A stretch of 64,000 nt of DNA, from contig NZ_CP121464.1 of assembly GCF_029690045.1 (NCBI RefSeq), forward strand, positions 1,364,001 to 1,428,000, read 5' to 3'. A model generated the notes under the pieces. That model ran no database searches. It was not told the origin of the DNA and was given only the letters and a program-made list of their open reading frames with translations. Origin of the DNA: Janthinobacterium rivuli (GTDB lineage: Bacteria > Pseudomonadota > Gammaproteobacteria > Burkholderiales > Burkholderiaceae_D). This document shows positions 7,155 to 48,806 of this stretch, piece after piece. The position numbers and the translations under genes were made by a program. The first letter of the stretch is position 1. Each line of letters begins with the position of its first letter.

Positions 7155-7296
7155 GCCGTTCTCCTGTCGTGTGGATGCCGCTGCCGTATGCATGCTGGCA
7201 ATGAAGCCACTATAGGCAAAACCTTGCTGCCGGGCATCGCGTATGCGACGAATGGCAGGAATGGTGGACCGAACTGCGACAAACCGGGACAAGCGG

Positions 7297-7812
7297 TTAT
7301 TCAAACACCTTGAGTTTCAGCTGGAAACTGAGGGCGCCATACAGGCGGTCCTTGTAGGACGGCACGATGGCGATATTCACGCCCACGCGCTGGTATTCAT
7401 AGCTGATGGTGGGCACCAGGGCCGGGAACCAGCCGCCATCGCGCATCTTCGGATAGCCGCTGAAGCCGCCAACGACGGCGCCGACGCGCAGCGGGCCTAC
7501 CTTGATCGGCTGGTAGTACACGCCCAGGTAGTTCGAGTAGGCGCGGTCGCTATTGTAGAAGCGGCCAGCCGTGACCGAGGCGACCGTGGAAAAGCGGTAT
7601 TCGGCGCCCAGGCCCGGATTGCTGTCGTTCAGGTTCTTGTCGCGCTGAAAGTGATACGAATAAAAGCCCGCGTTGAGCCAGGTTTCGCTCAGCGGCTGAT
7701 TTTCTATCATGCCGACTGTCTGCGCCTGTGCCGCGCCCGCCACTGCCAGCAGCGCCGCGCAGGCAGCTTTGCCCAGCAATGACGCGGTGCGCGCCGATGA
7801 CCATTGTTTCAT
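7297..7812 (-). CDS. Predicted small outer-membrane beta-barrel protein
   Basis: A 171-residue protein. A signal peptide with a basic start (MKQWSSARTASLLGK) and an AQA-type cleavage site is followed by alternating-pattern strands such as WLNAGFYSYHFQR, GLGAEYRFS and GALSFQLKLKVFE, ending in an aromatic/acidic tail. The composition and length fit an eight-stranded barrel. A PagP/PagL-like or surface-lipid role is possible, but no catalytic motif is certain. The start at 7812 is supported by AAGGA upstream; an in-frame ATG at 7869 would add residues before the signal peptide. Confidence 0.6.
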   Translation of the reverse strand: MKQWSSARTASLLGKAACAALLAVAGAAQAQTVGMIENQPLSETWLNAGFYSYHFQRDKNLNDSNPGLGAEYRFSTVASVTAGRFYNSDRAYSNYLGVYYQPIKVGPLRVGAVVGGFSGYPKMRDGGWFPALVPTISYEYQRVGVNIAIVPSYKDRLYGALSFQLKLKVFE

Positions 7813-7903
7813 GCCTGTTCCTTGTCCTGTCGATATGGCGCCGCCAATGCAAGCGCTCCAGCGCGCCATGCTATCACTGCCAGATTGTTCATTGGAAATT
7901 TCA

Positions 7904-8581
7904 TCACGTGCCCGGCGCAGCGCCAGGCAGGGCGATGGCCGCCTGCACCATGTGCGTGAGCAGGATTTCCGCGTCCTCGTAGTCCTTGCGCGTGAGCTGC
8001 TTGCGCTCCAGCACCAGGGTCATCTGCGCTGAAAAATCCGCATACGATTGCGTCATGGCCCAGATGGCGAACATCAGGTGAGTGGCGTTGACGGGCGCGA
8101 TCCTGCCGGCGGCGATCCACGCTTCGAAGACGGCGATATCCTTGCGCAGCAGGGGCACGACTCTTTCTCGTATCTGCGCGCCGTACAGGGGCGCGCCATT
8201 GATCACCTCCAGCGCATACACGCGCGAAGCCCACGGCTGTTCGCGCGAAAAACGCAGCTTGGCGCCGATGTACGCGCGCAGCACGTCGCGCGGCTCGTCG
8301 TGTTCATTGGCCAGCATATCCATGCGTGCCAGCCAGTCGTCGAGCACATCGTCGAGCACGCGCTGGTACAGCAGCTGCTTGGACGGGAAGTAATACATCA
8401 GGTTTTGCTTCGACAGGCCGGCCCGCTCGGCGATGGTGGCGATCGACGCGCCTTCATAGCCGCTTTCCGCAAATACGCGCACGGCTTGTGCCAGGATGTC
8501 CGCTTCCAGGCGGTCGCGGTTTTGCAGGCGCCGGCCGCCGGCATTTTTCACGGGAAGGGCAGGGGATTTGTCGCTGGCCAT
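7904..8581 (-). CDS. TetR-family regulator, RutR-like
   Basis: A 225-residue repressor. The N-terminal helix-turn-helix contains GASIATIAERAGLSKQNLMYYFPSKQ, as two adjacent halves of the TetR signature. The C-terminal half resembles the YcdC/RutR ligand domain (REQPWASRVYALEVINGAP). RutR senses uracil and thymine in E. coli. The gene sits 10 nt downstream of the mocR-type gene and next to a complete pyrimidine-degradation cluster, so a pyrimidine-responsive role is likely. This role is inferred from family and context; no RutR consensus palindrome was found upstream. Confidence 0.8.
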   Translation of the reverse strand: MASDKSPALPVKNAGGRRLQNRDRLEADILAQAVRVFAESGYEGASIATIAERAGLSKQNLMYYFPSKQLLYQRVLDDVLDDWLARMDMLANEHDEPRDVLRAYIGAKLRFSREQPWASRVYALEVINGAPLYGAQIRERVVPLLRKDIAVFEAWIAAGRIAPVNATHLMFAIWAMTQSYADFSAQMTLVLERKQLTRKDYEDAEILLTHMVQAAIALPGAAPGT

Positions 8582-8591
8582 GGCGGGTTCT

Positions 8592-10049
8592 TTAGCGTGG
8601 GCGGATCGATTGCAGGAATGCCTGCAGCACGGGGGTATCGGTGTAGGCCACGTTGAAGCGGAACCACACCGTCTCGGGCGCGCGCAGCATGAAAAATTCG
8701 TTCGGCGACAGCAGGATGCCCGCCTTCAAGGCCATGTCGGCGATGATCTTGCCATTCCATTCCGGCGTCTGGATAGTGGGCCAGCCGGCGCTGACGAACA
8801 TGCCGCCGCGGGGACGCGCCACGGGCGCCATGCCCGCCTGCGTCAGGCAGTCGATACTGCGCTCGCGGGCTGCATCGAGCTGCGCCACCAGCCGTTCCAC
8901 CATGCGCTTGTAGGGCCGCGCGGACACGGCGTGGTAGACGGCGCGCTCGTTGATTTCCGACGTCGTCAGTCCCGCCAGCATTTTCACGCGCACCAGTTCA
9001 GCCACCAGCGACGGCGAGGCGCAAATCGAGCCCACGCGCAGCACGGGCGACAGGGTCTTGGAAAAACTGCCCACGCGGATCACGCGGCGCAAGCCGTCCA
9101 TGGCCGCCAGCGATGCTTCGCCGCGCGCCGCCAGTTCGCGGTAGATATCGTCTTCCACCAGCCAGAAATCGAATTGCTCGGCCAGTGCCAGCAGGCGGTG
9201 CGTTTGCGCCTGGCTCAGCGATGTTCCCAGCGGATTTTGCAGCACCGTGTTGACGAACATCAGCTTCGGCTGCGTGCGCGCCGCTTCAACGGCCAGCGCA
9301 TCGAGATCGAGGCCCGCCTCGCCGCGCGCAATGCCCACGGGGATGCAGCCGTGATGGCGGATCAGCGACTGCAGATTGCTGTAGCCGGGGTCTTCCACCA
9401 GCACCGTGTCGCCGGGCTTGGTCAGGCTGCGCAAGATCAAGTCAAAAGCATGCGTGGCGCCGTGCGTCAGCAAGACCTGGTCCGGCTCCACCTGGAACAG
9501 CTCTTCCGACAGGCTGGTGGCCAGGTGCTGGCGCAGCGAGGGAAAGCCGAGAGGATGGCCATAGCCGCGCAATCGGCTGGCGGGAATGCGCATGGCCTGA
9601 CGCACGGCATCGAGCACGGTCGCTTCGCCATACATCTCGGGCGGCAGCCACCCGGCGCCCACGGGCAGGGCGTCGGACACGCCCGAGTACAGGTCCGGCG
9701 TGAGGGCGTCGATGGCGGTCGGACTCGCGTGTACGGCGGCCTGCGGCGAGGCGGCGATATCGTGGCGCGCGACGAAGTAGCCGGAACCACGGCGCGACGA
9801 CAGCAGGCCGAGGTTGACCAGGCGGTCGTACGATTCGACGACGGTAAACGTCGACACGCCATTGCAGCGGGCGAACTGGCGCACGGACGGCATGCGCGTG
9901 CCGATGCGCAGAGCGCGGCTGCCCACCATGACGCTGATGGCGATGACGATCTGCTCGACGAGGCCGCCCTTCTTCTGGCGGTCGATGTCCAGCACGGGCC
10001 AGCCGCTTGCTTGCTCGGGGGCATCGTCTGTGCTGTCGCTGTGCTTCAC
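8592..10049 (-). CDS. MocR-type regulator (GntR wHTH fused to aminotransferase fold)
   Basis: A 485-residue protein. An N-terminal GntR winged helix (RIGTRMPSVRQFARC, GVSTFTVVESYDRL) is followed by a fold-type-I aminotransferase domain with the PLP-lysine motif SFSKTLSPVLRVG. The start is GTG with an AAGGAG site 5 nt upstream. It is divergent from the beta-alanine transaminase gene across a 201-nt gap. MocR proteins usually control the adjacent divergent genes and sense an amino compound bound as a PLP adduct. Beta-alanine would be the logical effector here, but that is inference. Confidence 0.88.
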   Translation of the reverse strand: MKHSDSTDDAPEQASGWPVLDIDRQKKGGLVEQIVIAISVMVGSRALRIGTRMPSVRQFARCNGVSTFTVVESYDRLVNLGLLSSRRGSGYFVARHDIAASPQAAVHASPTAIDALTPDLYSGVSDALPVGAGWLPPEMYGEATVLDAVRQAMRIPASRLRGYGHPLGFPSLRQHLATSLSEELFQVEPDQVLLTHGATHAFDLILRSLTKPGDTVLVEDPGYSNLQSLIRHHGCIPVGIARGEAGLDLDALAVEAARTQPKLMFVNTVLQNPLGTSLSQAQTHRLLALAEQFDFWLVEDDIYRELAARGEASLAAMDGLRRVIRVGSFSKTLSPVLRVGSICASPSLVAELVRVKMLAGLTTSEINERAVYHAVSARPYKRMVERLVAQLDAARERSIDCLTQAGMAPVARPRGGMFVSAGWPTIQTPEWNGKIIADMALKAGILLSPNEFFMLRAPETVWFRFNVAYTDTPVLQAFLQSIRPR

Positions 10050-42285: not shown

Positions 42286-42325
42286 AAGTGTTTAATTAAT
42301 CAACTATTTAATTAATATCACACTT
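42286..42325. promoter_or_regulatory. AT-rich palindromic operator upstream of the GntP gene
   Basis: Outer arms AAGTGT (42286-42291) and ACACTT (42320-42325) enclose two copies of TTTAATTAAT (42291-42300 and 42307-42316), 16 bp apart. It is 21-60 nt upstream of the GntP start. In this GC-rich genome it stands out strongly and is likely a regulator-binding site or promoter element. Confidence 0.55.
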
Positions 42326-42473
42326 CGCGGGCGCACGCTAACGCGCGGGTAAAGGTGCCTGAAGATTGCGCAGACAAGGAGACAAGAAGACAATGTGGCT
42401 TTGGATAAAAGTATTCGAATTCCCTTCTGCCTGTCTTAAGCCTGCTTTGGCTGGTGGACTTCCTTCGAATTAA

Positions 42474-42833
42474 TTACCAAGCCATGCCTCTCAATGCTTC
42501 CCCTAGCTGATGCATAAAAATCAAGAACCGCACCACGACAATGAGTGTTGCAATAAAAAGCAATCCATACTGTTCGCCTATAGTTATTCTTCCTGATTTC
42601 CCCAGCTTGACCCATGCCAAAATAAACAGGCCCAGAGCGAGGCATGCAAGTGGGATTTTCAGCGGCCGGTCATTGAAATCAGGCACGCTGATACCGGTGA
42701 ATATCCCAATCAACTCAGTCGGGTGATCGATCAGGAGCAGGAAAAAGGCGAGGATCGGGAGAAATCCGATGAGCAGTCCAAGGAGATAGGCTTTCTTCTT
42801 GCTTGCCGCTTGCTCCGGCGGATGGTTCATCAT
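42474..42833 (-). CDS. Small membrane protein of unknown function
   Basis: A 119-residue protein with three or four predicted helices (YLLGLLIGFLPILAFFLLLI, ACLALGLFILAWVKL, GLLFIATLIVVVRFLIF). Codon use and base composition are more A+T-rich than its neighbours. The family is not recognised. Two ATG codons are possible at the start. It sits at the outer edge of the island described below. Confidence 0.55.
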   Translation of the reverse strand: MMNHPPEQAASKKKAYLLGLLIGFLPILAFFLLLIDHPTELIGIFTGISVPDFNDRPLKIPLACLALGLFILAWVKLGKSGRITIGEQYGLLFIATLIVVVRFLIFMHQLGEALRGMAW

Positions 42834-43104
42834 GGCTTGGACGTCTTCTCAGAAATTTATATCAACCAGCGACGCAGACTTGTCACGCGAATTCAGATAA
42901 GGAAGGATGCCGATGGCATTTCAGGATGCTGGTCGGGGTGGGAGGATTCGAACTTGCTTATACGTTGAAAAGCAAAGAAAATCCGATACGCCGACATGGT
43001 CGGGCCGCGGCAATTCCACTTGGCGCGACTCCACCGTCAGGGTATTCAAAATTAAATCAACGCTTAGCTCAGACATTGATCGTGTTCGAATGCAAAGCAT
43101 GCGG
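42834..43104. other. Gap with tRNA 3'-end fragment
   Basis: 271 nt without a supportable gene. It is relatively A+T-rich and contains the truncated tRNA-Pro 3' end described at 42930-42953. I see no other structure in it. Confidence 0.5.
42930..42953 (-). repeat. Truncated tRNA-Pro 3' end, candidate distal attachment site
   Basis: A 24-nt copy, with one mismatch, of the 3' end of the tRNA-Pro gene at 48730-48753. It includes the CCA end, acceptor strand and part of the T-arm. It has the same orientation, exactly 5,800 nt away. There is no tRNA body beside it, so it is a fragment, as left by site-specific integration. Confidence 0.65.
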
Positions 43105-44025
43105 TCAGTGTTCAGCAATTTGCTTGAGTTGGCTGACGTCTCTCAGCACCTGTCCATACGATCGATACAAGTTGGCCGCCGGCAGGCGGCCTTGTTGCGC
43201 CATTAGCGCATGCACCTGCTGCAGGCGATAGAAGGGTACGTGTGGATATTCATGATGCTCGATATGGTAATGGATACGATGCGGTCCGACGAAAAAAGTT
43301 TGCCAGCTGCGCCGTACGACGGTACGCGCACTGAATCGCTGATCTTCCGACGCCCGGTAGCCCGCGTGCTCGGTGATCGCGCGTATGCGCCCGAACAGCG
43401 GTAGCAAGGTCAGCGCTGGTAAGATCCAAAGCCCGAAATACAGCGCTGCATGTCCCGCTGCCGCGAGCAGGCCGATCATCACGCCCTGTACCGCAACGAT
43501 GCTGGCGATTGCGTAGAACCTCTTGCTGTGGCCGGCAGCCTTATGCGGATTGCGGCCACGCAGCCTGGCGCGCACCAGATTGCGCGCGCTGAGGAAGTAT
43601 CCAATGCCGGTGGCATCTTTGAACAAACGCCACACCAATTCCCTACGCGTCACGGGGTAGTCGTCGATGCCGAATATGGTGGCGACCGGATCGTCGGCTA
43701 CCATCGGTGCACGGTGATGCTGCAAGTGGCCGCTGCGATAAAAATCCATCACCAGCAGAAGTGGCGCTGCCGCGAACAGTTGGCCTGCGATGTCGTTCAG
43801 GCGCCGATGCGACAGCAGGGTACCGTGAGCGCTTTCATGCATCAGAACGGCTAGCGCGAGCTGGGTGCGGGCGACCAGGACCGCGCTTAGCACGAACACC
43901 AGCGGATAGGGAAAGCGGATAGCCGCGGCGAAGCAGGCAGCAATCAGCGCCCAGTCAAGCGCGACGGCGAGTAGTGCGCGCGGATTGCTGATCGTTGTGA
44001 GATGCGCCGGTAATGGGGGCCTCAT
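43105..44025 (-). CDS. Membrane fatty-acid desaturase
   Basis: A 306-residue integral-membrane di-iron enzyme. The three His boxes are HESAH (63-67), HLQHH (100-104) and HIEHH (254-258), with hydrophobic segments between them. It introduces a double bond or hydroxyl into an acyl chain or related lipid. It is the last gene of the five-gene operon, 10 nt after the GT-B gene. The specific substrate is not known. Confidence 0.87.
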   Translation of the reverse strand: MRPPLPAHLTTISNPRALLAVALDWALIAACFAAAIRFPYPLVFVLSAVLVARTQLALAVLMHESAHGTLLSHRRLNDIAGQLFAAAPLLLVMDFYRSGHLQHHRAPMVADDPVATIFGIDDYPVTRRELVWRLFKDATGIGYFLSARNLVRARLRGRNPHKAAGHSKRFYAIASIVAVQGVMIGLLAAAGHAALYFGLWILPALTLLPLFGRIRAITEHAGYRASEDQRFSARTVVRRSWQTFFVGPHRIHYHIEHHEYPHVPFYRLQQVHALMAQQGRLPAANLYRSYGQVLRDVSQLKQIAEH

Positions 44026-44035
44026 GATGGACGCC

Positions 44036-45154
44036 TCATCGGTGGACAGACCGCGCGGCCAGCTCGTACAGCACCGCTACCCAGCTCTGCAGGCGTGCGC
44101 CGGCTACCGCGCGGCCGTCCGGCGCAGGCAAGGTGGGGGCGCTTTGTAGCAGATCGGCGCACGCGCTGCACAGGTCTTGGGCGAACGTTGGCGCGTCGCC
44201 GCGCCAGACGACGATGCGATGCGCCAGCCCCAGCGCCGCCGCGCGCGCTGCGTTGATTTTCTGCTCCGGCTGCTCGGTTAGCACCAGAACGATGGGCCGA
44301 CCGTAGACCAGCGCCACCGACAACGCCGCCATGCCGGGCGCCGAGACGATCAGGTTGCTGGCGGCAGCTTGCCGCACCCAGTCGGCGTCCTGCGCCTTCC
44401 ATCGCGCGCGTCCGGCATAGCCCTCGCCGACCAGCGTTGCGTGCATGCCGGCGAGGAGCAAGCCGGTTTCGATCCCATCGGCCAGGCAGGGGTCTCGGAA
44501 ATGGGGATTGAGGTAGACGGCTGCGCATGCCTGCACGCGCGGCACTGCGGCGTCAAACAGCGCGGCCACAACGACCGGAGTCGGCAGGCGGAATGTGGCG
44601 CCGTCGCAAGTCGCCTCGTAGCTGAAGTCGTGCTCAATGCGCGCTAAGCTGGCGTTGATCTGCCATCCGACGATGCGATGGAACAGGCGTGAGAGGATAG
44701 CTGGTAGTCGCCCGGAAAAATTGTTTTGAACCGCCTGCCGCAAGCTGGTGCCGTAGATGTGTACCACCTTGCCCCGCCATGCCGGCATGCAGCCCATGAA
44801 CAGCAATGCCGGGTGAAATGAGTCGTTGATGATTAAGTCTGCGCTGCGCAGAGCGATGCGTAGTTGCATCATGTCGCGGCACATCCGCGACGGTCGAAAC
44901 AGATAGTTGGCGATATTTGCGTCGGTTTCTGCGGACAGCATGTTTTGCCGGGTGTCAAACTGGACTGCGTAGTGGCGCGACAGCACTTGCGCAGTGATGC
45001 CGAATCCGGCCAGGAAAGCGACGCCTTCGTCCGATGTGGTCAGTACATCGACATCGGCGCCGTATTCGCGTAACGCATGCGTGAGTAGTTGCGCGCGCAT
45101 CAGGTGACCGCGGGCGTCGGCCGTTGCCAGATAGGTCACCTTGATGGTGTTCAT
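44036..45154 (-). CDS. GT-B-fold glycosyltransferase (MurG/UGT-like)
   Basis: A 372-residue protein. It begins MNTIKVTYLATADARGHLMRA, resembling the N-terminal nucleotide-sugar-transferase fold, with the donor region near SAPGMAALSVALVYGRPIVLVL and EQKINAARAAALG. It has no membrane anchor. The ATGA start overlaps the stop of the di-iron gene. It probably transfers a sugar to a lipid or small molecule; donor and acceptor are unknown. Confidence 0.75.
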   Translation of the reverse strand: MNTIKVTYLATADARGHLMRAQLLTHALREYGADVDVLTTSDEGVAFLAGFGITAQVLSRHYAVQFDTRQNMLSAETDANIANYLFRPSRMCRDMMQLRIALRSADLIINDSFHPALLFMGCMPAWRGKVVHIYGTSLRQAVQNNFSGRLPAILSRLFHRIVGWQINASLARIEHDFSYEATCDGATFRLPTPVVVAALFDAAVPRVQACAAVYLNPHFRDPCLADGIETGLLLAGMHATLVGEGYAGRARWKAQDADWVRQAAASNLIVSAPGMAALSVALVYGRPIVLVLTEQPEQKINAARAAALGLAHRIVVWRGDAPTFAQDLCSACADLLQSAPTLPAPDGRAVAGARLQSWVAVLYELAARSVHR

Positions 45155-45882
45155 GGACGTGCGGGCCACAGCCGCAACGCGGCGCCGGCCAGATACATGA
45201 TGAGCGCGCTGGAGACGCCCCAGGCACGATCGATGGCGCGAATCTCATCGAGCAGCGATGCCAGGCTCCCGTGTTCGGACGGCAGCACCAGACGTGCCAG
45301 CGTATGCTGGCACAAGCGAACGTGGCGGTCTTCATCGCTCAGCACACCAACCAACAGGGGATATAGCGGATGAACTGTGCCAATCAGCGCGCAATGGCGC
45401 CGCAGAACGCGGGTGAACGTCTGTTCGGCGCACAAGCCGATAGCGAACGCCGGGATGAGGTGGCCTGCGGAAAAGCTGCTACTGTAGCGATGCGCGAGTG
45501 TGCGCCATTGCGCGATCTTGCGTAGGGTGAGCGCATCGGGGCGCGCGGACAAAGGCACCGGCGCTATCCCGCCCCGCGCCGTTAGCGCAGCCGCAAACAG
45601 CGAAGCATGACGCCGTTCGTCCGCCAGGTGCTTTTCCATTTGTCGCGCCAGCCAAGCCGGCGGCTGGCCCAGCAGGTCAGACTGCAGCGCGATTTCGCTG
45701 GCCTCCTCGCCTATCAGGTAGATACGCAACAGCAGCCGTTCACCGGCCACGCTGGCATGCAGTTGGCGCAGGGCGGCACGCTTGATGTGGTCGACCCAGC
45801 GCGCCTGCATGGCCGGCAAGCCGCATAGTGGCGGCGCTGCCAAGCGGGCCGGCAGCGGCCATCCATCAGCGTGCAAGCGCAT
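45151..45882 (-). CDS. Ferritin-like di-iron protein
   Basis: A 243-residue mostly helical protein. The ligand pattern is complete and symmetrical: Glu59/60 then ExxH at 89-92, and Glu153 then ExxH at 184-187. This is the four-helix-bundle di-iron arrangement of ferritin-like oxygenases. Start 45882 overlaps the upstream gene by 17 nt; a longer reading frame would overlap it by about 100 nt. It could hydroxylate, desaturate or cleave an intermediate. The exact reaction is unknown. Confidence 0.7.
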   Translation of the reverse strand: MRLHADGWPLPARLAAPPLCGLPAMQARWVDHIKRAALRQLHASVAGERLLLRIYLIGEEASEIALQSDLLGQPPAWLARQMEKHLADERRHASLFAAALTARGGIAPVPLSARPDALTLRKIAQWRTLAHRYSSSFSAGHLIPAFAIGLCAEQTFTRVLRRHCALIGTVHPLYPLLVGVLSDEDRHVRLCQHTLARLVLPSEHGSLASLLDEIRAIDRAWGVSSALIMYLAGAALRLWPARP

Positions 45883-46858
45883 CGCCCGCCGCCAGCTGAT
45901 TGCCCAGCACGAGCCCGATAAAGCTTTGCTGCAGGAAAGCCGCCGCCGCATTGCCGGCCCCGGCAAAGGCCTGTTGCTGGTCGCCGTAACGCAGGTAGCC
46001 CTGGCCGTGCACGGCGCCGATGGTCAGCTTGTCGCGCGCGGCGAAGCCACGCTTCATCAGCGGCTTGAGCAGCGGGTGGTCGCTCAGGCCGTACAGGAAC
46101 AGTTCGCGCTGGACCACTTGGTTGGGGATTTTGCCGGTCAGCGCTTCGAGCTCGAATGACCAAGTGCCGTGCGCCAGCAGGGCGCCGGCGTTGCCGGCGC
46201 TTGGCGGATCGCTGTGCAGCCGTGCGCGCATCACAGGCTTGGCTACCTTACCTGCACCGAGCGTGATGGTGATGTCGGGATCGCCCGGCTTCGCGCCGCG
46301 GTTGTCACGTACCTGTACCAGGTGGCTGGACAGGCGCGCGGCCAGGGCGGGATCGGACACCAGCTTTGTGGCTTGCTCGAACGATACCAGCACACGTCGG
46401 CCACTTGCTGCCGGCACGTCCACCAGATAGGGGTCGATACGTACCGCGCTGAATGCCCCCTTGACCGGTGTATGCGCATGGCTGCTGACTGACCAACTGT
46501 CTCCGGATTTGCTCAGTATCAGGTGGACGCTGACCGGTACGCGGCGGCCCGCTTCGTCCAGTGCCGAGCCTTGCAACAGCACGTCGCCGACGATGGTCTT
46601 TTTGCCATAACTGCGGGCGTTGTTGAAGTGAATCTGGTACGAGCTGGTGTCGACAGCTGCCGTGGTGGCCTGGTCGTCGAGGCCGATGCGGTTACACATC
46701 TCGGCATGCGTGTTCACCTCGGGAAGCGGGCAGCCGCTGGCTGATGCAAAATAATGAACGCCACGCCCCTCCAAGTCGGTGGCGCGGGCGCTACCGGTCA
46801 GCGCCAGCAAACTCAGGGCTGCCCATTGCAAAGTGGTGTAGGAACGGTGCAAGGTCAT
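45866..46858 (-). CDS. Exported protein of unknown family
   Basis: A 330-residue protein. A signal peptide (LQWAALSLLALTGSARA) is followed by a soluble region with two or more conserved-looking Cys (SGCPLPEVNTHAEMCNRIG) near residues 42-56. It has no domain I recognise. It is the second gene of the operon, 17 nt after the GT2 gene, and overlaps the di-iron gene. Its export suggests that part of the pathway, or its product, acts in the envelope. Confidence 0.7.
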   Translation of the reverse strand: MTLHRSYTTLQWAALSLLALTGSARATDLEGRGVHYFASASGCPLPEVNTHAEMCNRIGLDDQATTAAVDTSSYQIHFNNARSYGKKTIVGDVLLQGSALDEAGRRVPVSVHLILSKSGDSWSVSSHAHTPVKGAFSAVRIDPYLVDVPAASGRRVLVSFEQATKLVSDPALAARLSSHLVQVRDNRGAKPGDPDITITLGAGKVAKPVMRARLHSDPPSAGNAGALLAHGTWSFELEALTGKIPNQVVQRELFLYGLSDHPLLKPLMKRGFAARDKLTIGAVHGQGYLRYGDQQQAFAGAGNAAAAFLQQSFIGLVLGNQLAAGDALAR

Positions 46859-46875
46859 GGTAGGGTTTCCCGTGG

Positions 46876-47910
46876 TTAGCGTTCATGGTAGGACAGCGAT
46901 TGTGCGTCGGCGCCCTCGGCGGCAGCGCTGCGGATGCCGAGGCCCCGGCACAGTGCGCCAAGCATGTCCAGCCCGGAAAAAAACCCGATCAGAACGACGG
47001 CCGACACCCAGCGCAGGCCGCGCACCGGCGTTGCATCCTGATGGTTGAGTGCGTGCAGGCTGTACCACAGCCGCGCCGTCAGCACACAGAGCGGTCCGAC
47101 AGGGCCGCTATTTGCCAGCCATTGCATGGACCGTGGCAGATAGGTGCGCACCAGGTGGGGCGTCAAGCCGAGCGTGTCCTGTCCGCGCATCCAGCGTAAT
47201 TTGAACAGCTCGAAGCGGGTATCGGGCAGCTTGTGCACGGTGTGCGCCCGCACGGCGTAGTGCAGAGCCACGCCTGCGGCTTGGAGACGCAGGGCCAGCA
47301 CCTGACAGTGCGCGCGATACACGCCGTCGAGTGGCTGATAGCGGTGCTGCGCGAACAGCTCGCGCAAGAACACCACGTTGTTGGCGTAGAAGTTGCGCGT
47401 CGCGCGAGCTAGCAGCTGGCTGGGGAAGTACATGAAGTCAATCGTGGTTAGGGCGGTGCCTGCCACAGTGGCAGCGTAGCTGGTGCGGCCGGCCACCACT
47501 GCCGGTGGCGCTGCGTCCGTCAGCGGCGCGATCAGCTGTTCAAGCCAGTCTTGTTCGGGCTTGCAGTCGGCGTCGGCGAAGCAGACGTAGTCGCAGCGGT
47601 CGGCATGGACGGCGTCGAAACCGTCGTTCTTGGCCTGGTAGTAGCCGGTGCTGGCATGGATCCGCACGAAGTCGATGTCGCGGCCCGCCAGGCGCTCCGC
47701 GCTTGTGCGAATGCGCTCGCACAAGCCGTCGTGCGTGACGATCACTTGCGCGAGTGCGCTTAGTGCGACGCTCTGTTGCGCCAGCAGGCCGATCACATGC
47801 AGCAGGCTGGCGCCGGCCGCATCCAGGCCGGCGCCGCCGCGCAGGTTATTCGTCTCCAATACCAGGGCGGTACGCGCGGCAACATGTTCATGCGGCATAT
47901 TGTTTTCCAT
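46876..47910 (-). CDS. Family-2 glycosyltransferase with C-terminal membrane segment
   Basis: A 344-residue protein. The nucleotide-sugar motif is DAD at 113-115 (YVCFADADCKPEQDWLE), and a basic region (KLRWMRGQDTLG) resembles a GT2 acceptor-side motif. Hydrophobic C-terminal stretches (WVSAVVLIGFFSGLDMLGAL) would anchor it to the inner membrane. It is first in the operon. Start 47910 is tentative, since a second ATG four codons on has GGAAA upstream. Confidence 0.8.
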   Translation of the reverse strand: MENNMPHEHVAARTALVLETNNLRGGAGLDAAGASLLHVIGLLAQQSVALSALAQVIVTHDGLCERIRTSAERLAGRDIDFVRIHASTGYYQAKNDGFDAVHADRCDYVCFADADCKPEQDWLEQLIAPLTDAAPPAVVAGRTSYAATVAGTALTTIDFMYFPSQLLARATRNFYANNVVFLRELFAQHRYQPLDGVYRAHCQVLALRLQAAGVALHYAVRAHTVHKLPDTRFELFKLRWMRGQDTLGLTPHLVRTYLPRSMQWLANSGPVGPLCVLTARLWYSLHALNHQDATPVRGLRWVSAVVLIGFFSGLDMLGALCRGLGIRSAAAEGADAQSLSYHER

Positions 47911-48729
47911 TGCCCAAACAAGACGAGGGCCGTTAATTGGTCAAATCGGCGCACCGTTACGCGGCCAGCCTCTCAACTCTGCCCGGATGAGGCTGCTAAC
48001 CAAGCCAAGCTGCAGACGTACGGATTGTCTATTCCGAGATACCATTTTGCTTTGATAGTTCCGAACCCATCTTGTTTTTGGACAATATCATCATTAGTTT
48101 CTTCGGGGTATTTAGGGGATCAGCTTACTTCCGTCATGCTGGCGAACGGCGGGCGAGGTGAATCATGGAACACCTGTCCTCACGGCTGTATTCTGGTTCG
48201 AGCAGGCTGATGCAGTGCTGTTGACCTGGCAATGTTTGCCTCTACGACTATCAGTCGAAGCCGGCCGATTGGCGCTGGGTGCGATTCCGGCCAGACCGAG
48301 CCTGGGGATTCCAGTTGAGATTGTTTATGCGTTGTGTCGCGCTGCTGACGAACCTGTTGGGCTCGTTCGAGTGGACGGTCAGAGCTCTGTGTCAAACTAC
48401 TATGAAACAACTTCATCATGCCAATTCAGGAAATTGTACGTAAGTGCGCTACTTACTCCCATTTTTCATTGCTGATCATTTGGCATCCAGAATCGGCCTC
48501 CATCAATTCAAGGAGTCAGAACCATGCAAGAGGGCGAAACGAGCCTCGTGCTCGACGCGACGAACATGCCGCCTCGGGCCAGCCAATCTGCCGTTTGTCG
48601 GCGGCCACGGCGAACCGATACTAGAAGTGGAACACCGAACAGCTACGCTAATTTGCCACTAACGGACTAAAAATGACAAAGCCCAGTAGCTGTGGCTTTT
48701 CTAAGTTCTTGATTTGCAAAAAAGAAATT
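47911..48729. other. Gene-poor stretch between the island operon and tRNA-Pro
   Basis: An 819-nt stretch with lower GC than its surroundings, especially 48050-48700. No reading frame here looks like a real protein. The promoter of the five-gene operon must lie near 47911-48050; a TTGACC hexamer is present on the minus strand, but no convincing -10 was found. I could not recognise a decayed recombinase, although that would be the expected occupant. Confidence 0.5.
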
Positions 48730-48806
48730 TGGTCGGGGTGAGAGGATTCGAACCTCCGGCCTCTGCGTCCCGAACGCAGCGCTCTACCAGGCTGAGCCAC
48801 ACCCCG
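48730..48806 (-). tRNA. tRNA-Pro (anticodon CGG)
   Basis: A 77-nt gene with encoded CCA. The acceptor stem CGGGGTG pairs with CACCCCG, the anticodon loop reads TTCGGGA, and the T-loop TTCGAAT is present. It reads proline codon CCG. Its 3' end faces the island and is repeated at 42930. Confidence 0.95.

Follow-up and report, generated by a model that had tools for sequence, protein, structure and literature searches.

Gene layout and islet borders

The window is a 64,000-nt stretch (contig positions 1364001-1428000) of the Janthinobacterium rivuli genome (6.33 Mb, one contig), and five adjacent genes in it lie on the minus strand. They encode, in order, a family 2 glycosyltransferase (GT2; 46876..47910, 344 aa, with a hydrophobic stretch at residues 302-320 in the hydropathy profile), an exported protein (45866..46858, 330 aa), a ferritin-like di-iron protein that is probably an oxygenase (45151..45882, 243 aa), a GT-B-like glycosyltransferase (44036..45169, 377 aa, GTG start) and a membrane protein of the fatty-acid desaturase/hydroxylase family (43105..44025, 306 aa). 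The open reading frames recovered between 43105 and 47910 bear out the initial annotation, which had described five genes on one strand with gaps or overlaps of -17 to +17 nt. From GT2 to desaturase, the coordinates give spacings of +17, -17, -4 and +10 nt, the -4 applying to an alternative ATG start of the GT-B gene at 45154, which produces an ATGA overlap with the di-iron gene. For the di-iron gene we chose the ATG at 45882 over the TTG further upstream at which the ORF list begins, since its counterparts in Serratia (L076) and several Pseudomonas loci begin where the exported-protein gene stops. The single direction, the short gaps and a gene order kept across loci mark the unit as a predicted operon. 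A scan of 42300-48800 found no sigma-70-like promoter (0 versus a shuffle mean of 2.0), a terminator scan did no better than shuffles (7 versus 6.1), and the Rfam search for regulatory RNA returned the tRNA alone.

The operon lies on a tRNA-Pro islet, which the initial annotation had not noticed. The insertion site is a tRNA-Pro (CGG) gene on the minus strand (48730..48806; Rfam tRNA, 67 bits). The 3' end of this gene forms the proximal repeat copy (48730..48753, plus strand), and an att-like distal copy lies at 42930..42953 (plus strand). The two copies run in the same direction and are identical at 23 of 24 positions; such a match occurred in 0 of 100 shuffles. Between them, the islet spans 42954..48729, and the starts of the two repeats are 5800 bp apart.

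Relatives carry the corresponding empty site. We searched 40 genomes of the genus and fetched 30 loci around the tRNA-Pro gene. In 13 of these (L092-L096, L098, L100, L101, L103-L105, L109 and L112) the site is empty, and 3-99 bp separate the far flank (ending at 42295-42359) from the tRNA match. Six loci, including that of the window itself, have the operon end at tRNA-Pro (L091, L099, L102, L114, L118 and L120). In L106, a stretch like 42675-42953 (86% identical) is joined to 48730 over a single repeat copy, which is the product expected from two repeats. L108 has 129 nt of the islet at tRNA-Pro, and the nine remaining loci show other content or a contig end. Eight of nine close copies of the operon are on the tRNA-Pro contig, within ~12 kb; the ninth, in G198, is not.

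The islet thus has the 3'-end repeat at its far border and the empty site in relatives that mark a tRNA islet, but no integrase (PF00589) of its own. The genome holds nine PF00589 matches, the nearest ~118 kb away, and the islet, if still mobile, would therefore need outside help. A fall in GC content (to 0.51-0.57) is confined to the vicinity of its ends, so base composition would have missed the islet.

A four-gene core and its patchy distribution

Loci were collected by scanning contigs for the exported protein, using a 26-row alignment and two short peptide patterns, which gave at least 79. The 79 listed loci are thus conditioned on the exported-protein gene; the remaining genes were located by tblastn (E <= 1e-10), whose matches do not prove intact genes (L052 has a stop within its GT2 match). 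All four of GT2, exported protein, di-iron protein and GT-B were matched in 76 of the 79 listed loci. As far as these matches tell, the unit recurs more often than by chance, given that the exported protein fetched the other three genes with it in 76 cases. The remaining loci are L073, a 3.4-kb contig with GT2 and the exported protein only, and L088 and L089, which hold a distant exported protein alone. The same gene order had been proposed as something to look for in other genomes, and we found it in 75 of the 79 listed loci; the exception among four-gene loci is L086 from Myxococcales (di-iron, GT-B, GT2, exported protein).

All five genes occur together in 44 of the 79 listed loci, and the other four without the desaturase in 32. 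The unit described as five genes is therefore conserved in other genomes as a core of four, to which the desaturase is accessory. Twelve genomes without a neighbouring desaturase were sampled; six have a weaker homolog elsewhere and six have none at E <= 1e-10. Other accessory genes accompany the core. A PAP2-family gene lies between GT-B and desaturase in 30 of the 44 desaturase-bearing loci, from Pseudomonas, Burkholderia, Paraburkholderia and Serratia (PAP2_3, E 3.6e-15, in the one member L076). It is absent from that position in 12 Oxalobacteraceae loci (L012-L023), L049 and L065; no PAP2 gene turned up in 49 of the 79 listed loci, nor in the window. A protein fusing PAP2 and FA_desaturase adjoins the L065 cluster and has 108 relatives (E <= 1e-10), of which many contain the two domains together; it only hints at a shared chemistry, because its desaturase part is just 29-30% identical to that of the window. 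L086 has a FadL-type gene upstream, and L020, L022 and L023 have one extra glycosyltransferase-like gene directly upstream (by Pfam in L020).

The core is inherited together. The pairwise distances of its four proteins correlate with r of 0.93-0.96 across 68 loci, although related loci inflate r; from 77 four-gene loci, nine (among them L011) had been removed for a stop inside or near the end of the tblastn range. dN/dS was 0.13-0.34 in 15 of 15 comparisons with L019 (Janthinobacterium sp. LM6), L012 and L018.

Other genomes share the operon. Its bearers include Janthinobacterium, Duganella, Variovorax, Pseudomonas, Burkholderia and Serratia and are scattered among soil and plant bacteria; candidate relatives from Xanthomonas and Amphritea fall outside the 79 listed loci. 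Within the genus, the GT-B gene is present in 12 of 40 genomes (nine at 93-100% identity, three at 64-69%). For the di-iron gene, the family sample gave 3 of 195 genomes, the source genome included, and the class sample 1 of 369, the source genome alone. In a quick tree built from 44 of the 68 loci after manual removal of 24, mostly near-duplicates, Pseudomonas is split into a P. alcaligenes group (six rows, SH-aLRT 99) and a second group (11 rows, SH-aLRT 100) that adjoins Paraburkholderia and includes Serratia L076, the placement of which is unsure (its row is long, of unusual composition and attached below an unresolved fork). The patchy spread and the division of Pseudomonas argue for lateral transfer. 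Searches of plasmid and phage collections for the exported protein by tblastn returned nothing.

Surveyed in 49 of the 79 listed loci, tRNA genes near the operon are not a general rule. tRNA-Pro is near it in L012, L014, L015, L018 (Pseudoduganella, 1 kb away) and L019, and tRNA-Lys lies within 5 kb in six Burkholderia loci, at ~160 bp in L072; tRNA-Gly is farther away in L061 and L071. In 33 of the 49, including Janthinobacterium L013, L016 and L017, the fetched stretch contains no tRNA.

Properties of the encoded proteins

The core proteins scored above no specific family cut-off in Pfam, NCBIfam or the sequences of solved structures, and cut-offs were reached only for the broad families PF00535 and PF00487. 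The first places GT2 in family 2 (37.3 bits, cut-off 23.3). Its F-x-D-x-D-C motif (F111, D113, D115, C116) does not vary among 21 chosen orthologs. In NCBIfam, the top model for GT2, matched by 21 of 21 orthologs, is the mycofactocin glycosyltransferase MftF (TIGR03965), yet the score is far below the curated cut-off (44.8 bits versus 280) and covers ~90 of 467 positions. The GT-B assignment is weaker. Of 24 orthologs, 23 match TIGR00661 (MJ1255/VC2487 glycosyltransferase) with E <= 0.01, and the window protein falls short of its cut-off (25.5 bits versus 195.9). In Pfam at E <= 0.1, 17 of the 24 orthologs match Glyco_transf_4 and seven Glyco_transf_28; the window protein has no match at that threshold.

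The desaturase is a member of PF00487 (FA_desaturase; 122.6 bits, cut-off 29.7), and its histidine boxes HxxxH, HxxHH and HxxHH are invariant in 17 chosen orthologs. Its best NCBIfam model, however, is an amino-acid hydroxylase, GntB (NF041365), the L-arginine hydroxylase of guanitoxin; all 17 orthologs match this model, and the window protein scores well under its cut-off (104.5 bits versus 380).

The di-iron protein has a predicted ferritin-like fold, with a ligand set that is invariant in an alignment of 28 chosen orthologs. Its Pfam matches to AurF (PF11583; 23.0 bits versus 29.6) and Ferritin are both below cut-off; AurF matches 27 of the 28 orthologs at E <= 0.1, and a number of orthologs carry a precomputed PF11583 label. 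The structure model is nearest to MiaE and aldehyde-deformylating oxygenase (ADO), both by modest margins: helical models commonly obtain best scores of ~14 in this comparison, many other proteins reach 12-15, and a functionally uncharacterised ferritin-like protein reaches 16.0. MiaE and ADO are single-domain ferritin-like di-iron oxygenases, and the modelled protein likewise appears ferritin-like with a complete ligand set, but its identity to them is 11-15%. The Pfam models of MiaE and ADO are not among the ten families matched by the 28 orthologs (E <= 0.1), and Foldseek gave no match for the model at E <= 0.001.

The exported protein begins with a signal-peptide-like N terminus, read by eye as SARA before TD. 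A putative beta-rich N domain is followed by a C-terminal domain (~188-330) that is modelled as a chalcone-isomerase (CHI)/fatty-acid-binding fold. For this domain the top Foldseek hit has an E value of 0.019, and none reaches 0.001. When its profile was compared with Chalcone_3 relatives, 105 collinear columns aligned (probability 1.6%, E 0.03), a score no better than that of a YceI control (1.4%, E 0.036) that aligned 15 columns, and there is no meaningful Pfam match among 26 orthologs. The predicted fold would be shared with plant fatty-acid-binding proteins and the chalcone-isomerase superfold at 4-10% identity, but the window protein is bacterial and secreted, has an extra N-terminal beta domain and lacks a clear match to the superfold at the sequence level. 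YceI as the N domain was not supported (hhalign against 15 YceI relatives, probability 0.4%).

These assignments support the earlier view of a unit with two glycosyltransferases, two distinct types of di-iron enzyme and a secreted protein. The claim that no such cluster had been described also held, as no named one was met in the family, structure or literature searches. In the literature, no title or abstract opening describes the gene set, a weak absence given that most subscription papers lie outside the search scope; the searched passages of PMC5080296 have 0 occurrences each of "desaturase" and "ferritin". We class the locus as a lateral islet that bears an orphan operon of probable biosynthetic function; it is unusual in pairing a protein modelled as MiaE/ADO-like with a secreted protein of predicted chalcone-isomerase fold.

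Proposed product and alternative readings

Our preferred reading, which we hold tentatively and at somewhat less than an even chance, is that the five genes form one operon on the 5.8-kb tRNA-Pro islet and make an oxidised, twice-glycosylated membrane lipid. The core contains no chain-building or amino-acid-activating gene, so the substrate would be a molecule that the host already has. The soluble di-iron enzyme would oxidise, and probably hydroxylate, a lipid or prenyl chain from the ordinary cell pool; because its gene belongs to the core and the desaturase does not, this is the likely obligate step, and it perhaps creates the hydroxyl that would then be glycosylated. GT2 and GT-B would attach the sugars in the cytoplasm. 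The desaturase, joined in other lineages by the PAP2 phosphatase, may tailor or dephosphorylate the lipid, and the secreted protein could bind or carry the product in the periplasm via its modelled fatty-acid-binding-like domain.

In the glycoglycerolipid pathway, a phosphatidate phosphatase is followed by two glycosyltransferases. PAP2, two glycosyltransferases and a desaturase occur together in 30 of the 79 listed loci, in likeness to that pathway. The unit differs from it in the additional soluble di-iron enzyme and secreted, putatively CHI-fold protein of its core, and in that PAP2 is missing from the window operon and from 49 of the 79 loci.

The initial annotation had left the product as a glycosylated lipid or metabolite. 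A lipid is the likelier of the two, given the predicted CHI/fatty-acid-binding fold, PAP2 in 30 of 44 loci, the L065 fusion, the FadL-type gene of L086 and MiaE and ADO as nearest folds, although the evidence for this choice is indirect. Against a lipid stand the weak di-iron and CHI fold matches, the 32 of 79 loci without a neighbouring desaturase, the GntB model and the non-universal PAP2.

The main alternative is a small diffusible natural product derived from an amino acid or amine: an AurF-like enzyme would oxidise nitrogen, a membrane enzyme resembling GntB would hydroxylate carbon, the compound would receive two sugars, and the role of the secreted protein would be self-protection or transport of the compound. 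The GntB matches of 17 of 17 desaturase orthologs, the AurF matches of 27 of 28 di-iron orthologs and a patchy spread that suits a secondary metabolite all point this way. However, both window proteins score below the curated cut-offs, the conserved unit has no amino-acid activating, transport or regulatory gene, and PAP2 and a fatty-acid-binding-like fold would better suit a lipid. We consider this alternative unlikely.

Another alternative, in our view improbable, is that the target of the operon is a glycan of the cell surface or a sugar linked to lipid (LPS, lipid A or a polyprenyl-phosphate-linked glycan), with effects on how phages, hosts or competitors recognise the cell. GT2 is weakly like the exopolysaccharide protein EpsD (20 of 21 orthologs) and the dolichyl-linked AglG (14 of 21; E <= 0.001), some PAP2 enzymes are polyprenyl-phosphate phosphatases, and surface variation typically involves patchy islets. 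Yet the window unit has no flippase, polymerase, ligase or sugar-nucleotide gene, two oxygenase-type enzymes with a fatty-acid-binding-like protein would be unusual in such a role, and none of the five proteins matched a PADLOC model (E <= 0.01). PADLOC covers anti-phage systems, and on this result we also rejected a known anti-phage defence system.

Very improbably, the secreted protein is itself the object, being modified, or having a bound compound modified, by the other enzymes and acting outside the cell: it belongs to the core of 76 of 79 loci (which it served to fetch) and stands without the other genes in L088 and L089, but cytoplasmic glycosyltransferases and oxygenases would need to act on it before export.

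If the membrane-lipid reading is true, a compact four-gene core common to several genera makes a lipid described by no source searched. A more specific version, that of a horizontally spread new pathway in which a MiaE/ADO-like enzyme hydroxylates a membrane lipid, two glycosyltransferases act on it and a CHI-type protein carries it in the periplasm, is doubtful as a whole; it would give the CHI-type fold, to our knowledge, its first role in bacterial glycolipid handling. The patchy spread on a tRNA islet may mean that the trait is selected locally, for example in surface chemistry, in competition or in contact with plants or fungi. Within the genus, members that bear the operon can be paired with members whose site is cleanly empty, which offers a natural comparison of lipid extracts.

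The tRNA-Pro integration site

A minus-strand gene for a membrane protein of 119 aa (42474-42833) lies in the interval that separates the distal repeat from the chromosomal flank. A stretch similar to the region of this gene was observed at the tRNA in another locus of the genus, L106 (1098-1524), from which the operon is absent. Thus, two or more units appear to be stacked at the tRNA-Pro site. Furthermore, copies of the tRNA-Pro 3' end (45-48 nt, 92-100% identical) were found in five genomes of the same genus (G168, G196, G202, G210 and G216), on the same contig as the main match and roughly 2 to 15 kb away from it. These additional copies suggest that the site is a hot spot with varied cargo.

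In Burkholderia, tRNA-Lys(TTT) lies less than 5 kb from the operon in loci L063, L069, L072, L075, L079 and L083, and in L072 only about 160 bp separate it from the operon end. This neighboring tRNA differs from the tRNA-Pro observed in Janthinobacterium.

Additional genes adjoining the cluster

Directly upstream of the cluster, locus L065 encodes a PAP2-desaturase fusion protein (7295-8755). Two-domain relatives of this protein are common in Pseudomonas and Burkholderia and often bear only the name 'fatty acid desaturase'. In three Oxalobacteraceae loci, a further gene was located just before the GT2 gene (L020:7551-8858, L022:7395-8876 and L023:7405-8658); the Pfam assignment as UGT/GT28-like was made for the L020 gene only.

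Distant and possibly damaged relatives

Distant relatives of the exported protein, with 28-31% identity, were identified in Polyangium and in a deltaproteobacterial MAG (L088:9920-10942 and L089:9911-10957), and tblastn gave no match to the other four genes of the operon in these two loci. In locus L052, the tblastn match to the GT2 glycosyltransferase (774-1805) contains a stop, and this copy may therefore be broken or misassembled. The di-iron protein has a relative in Xanthomonas campestris (P0130), with 58% identity and 120 member sequences.
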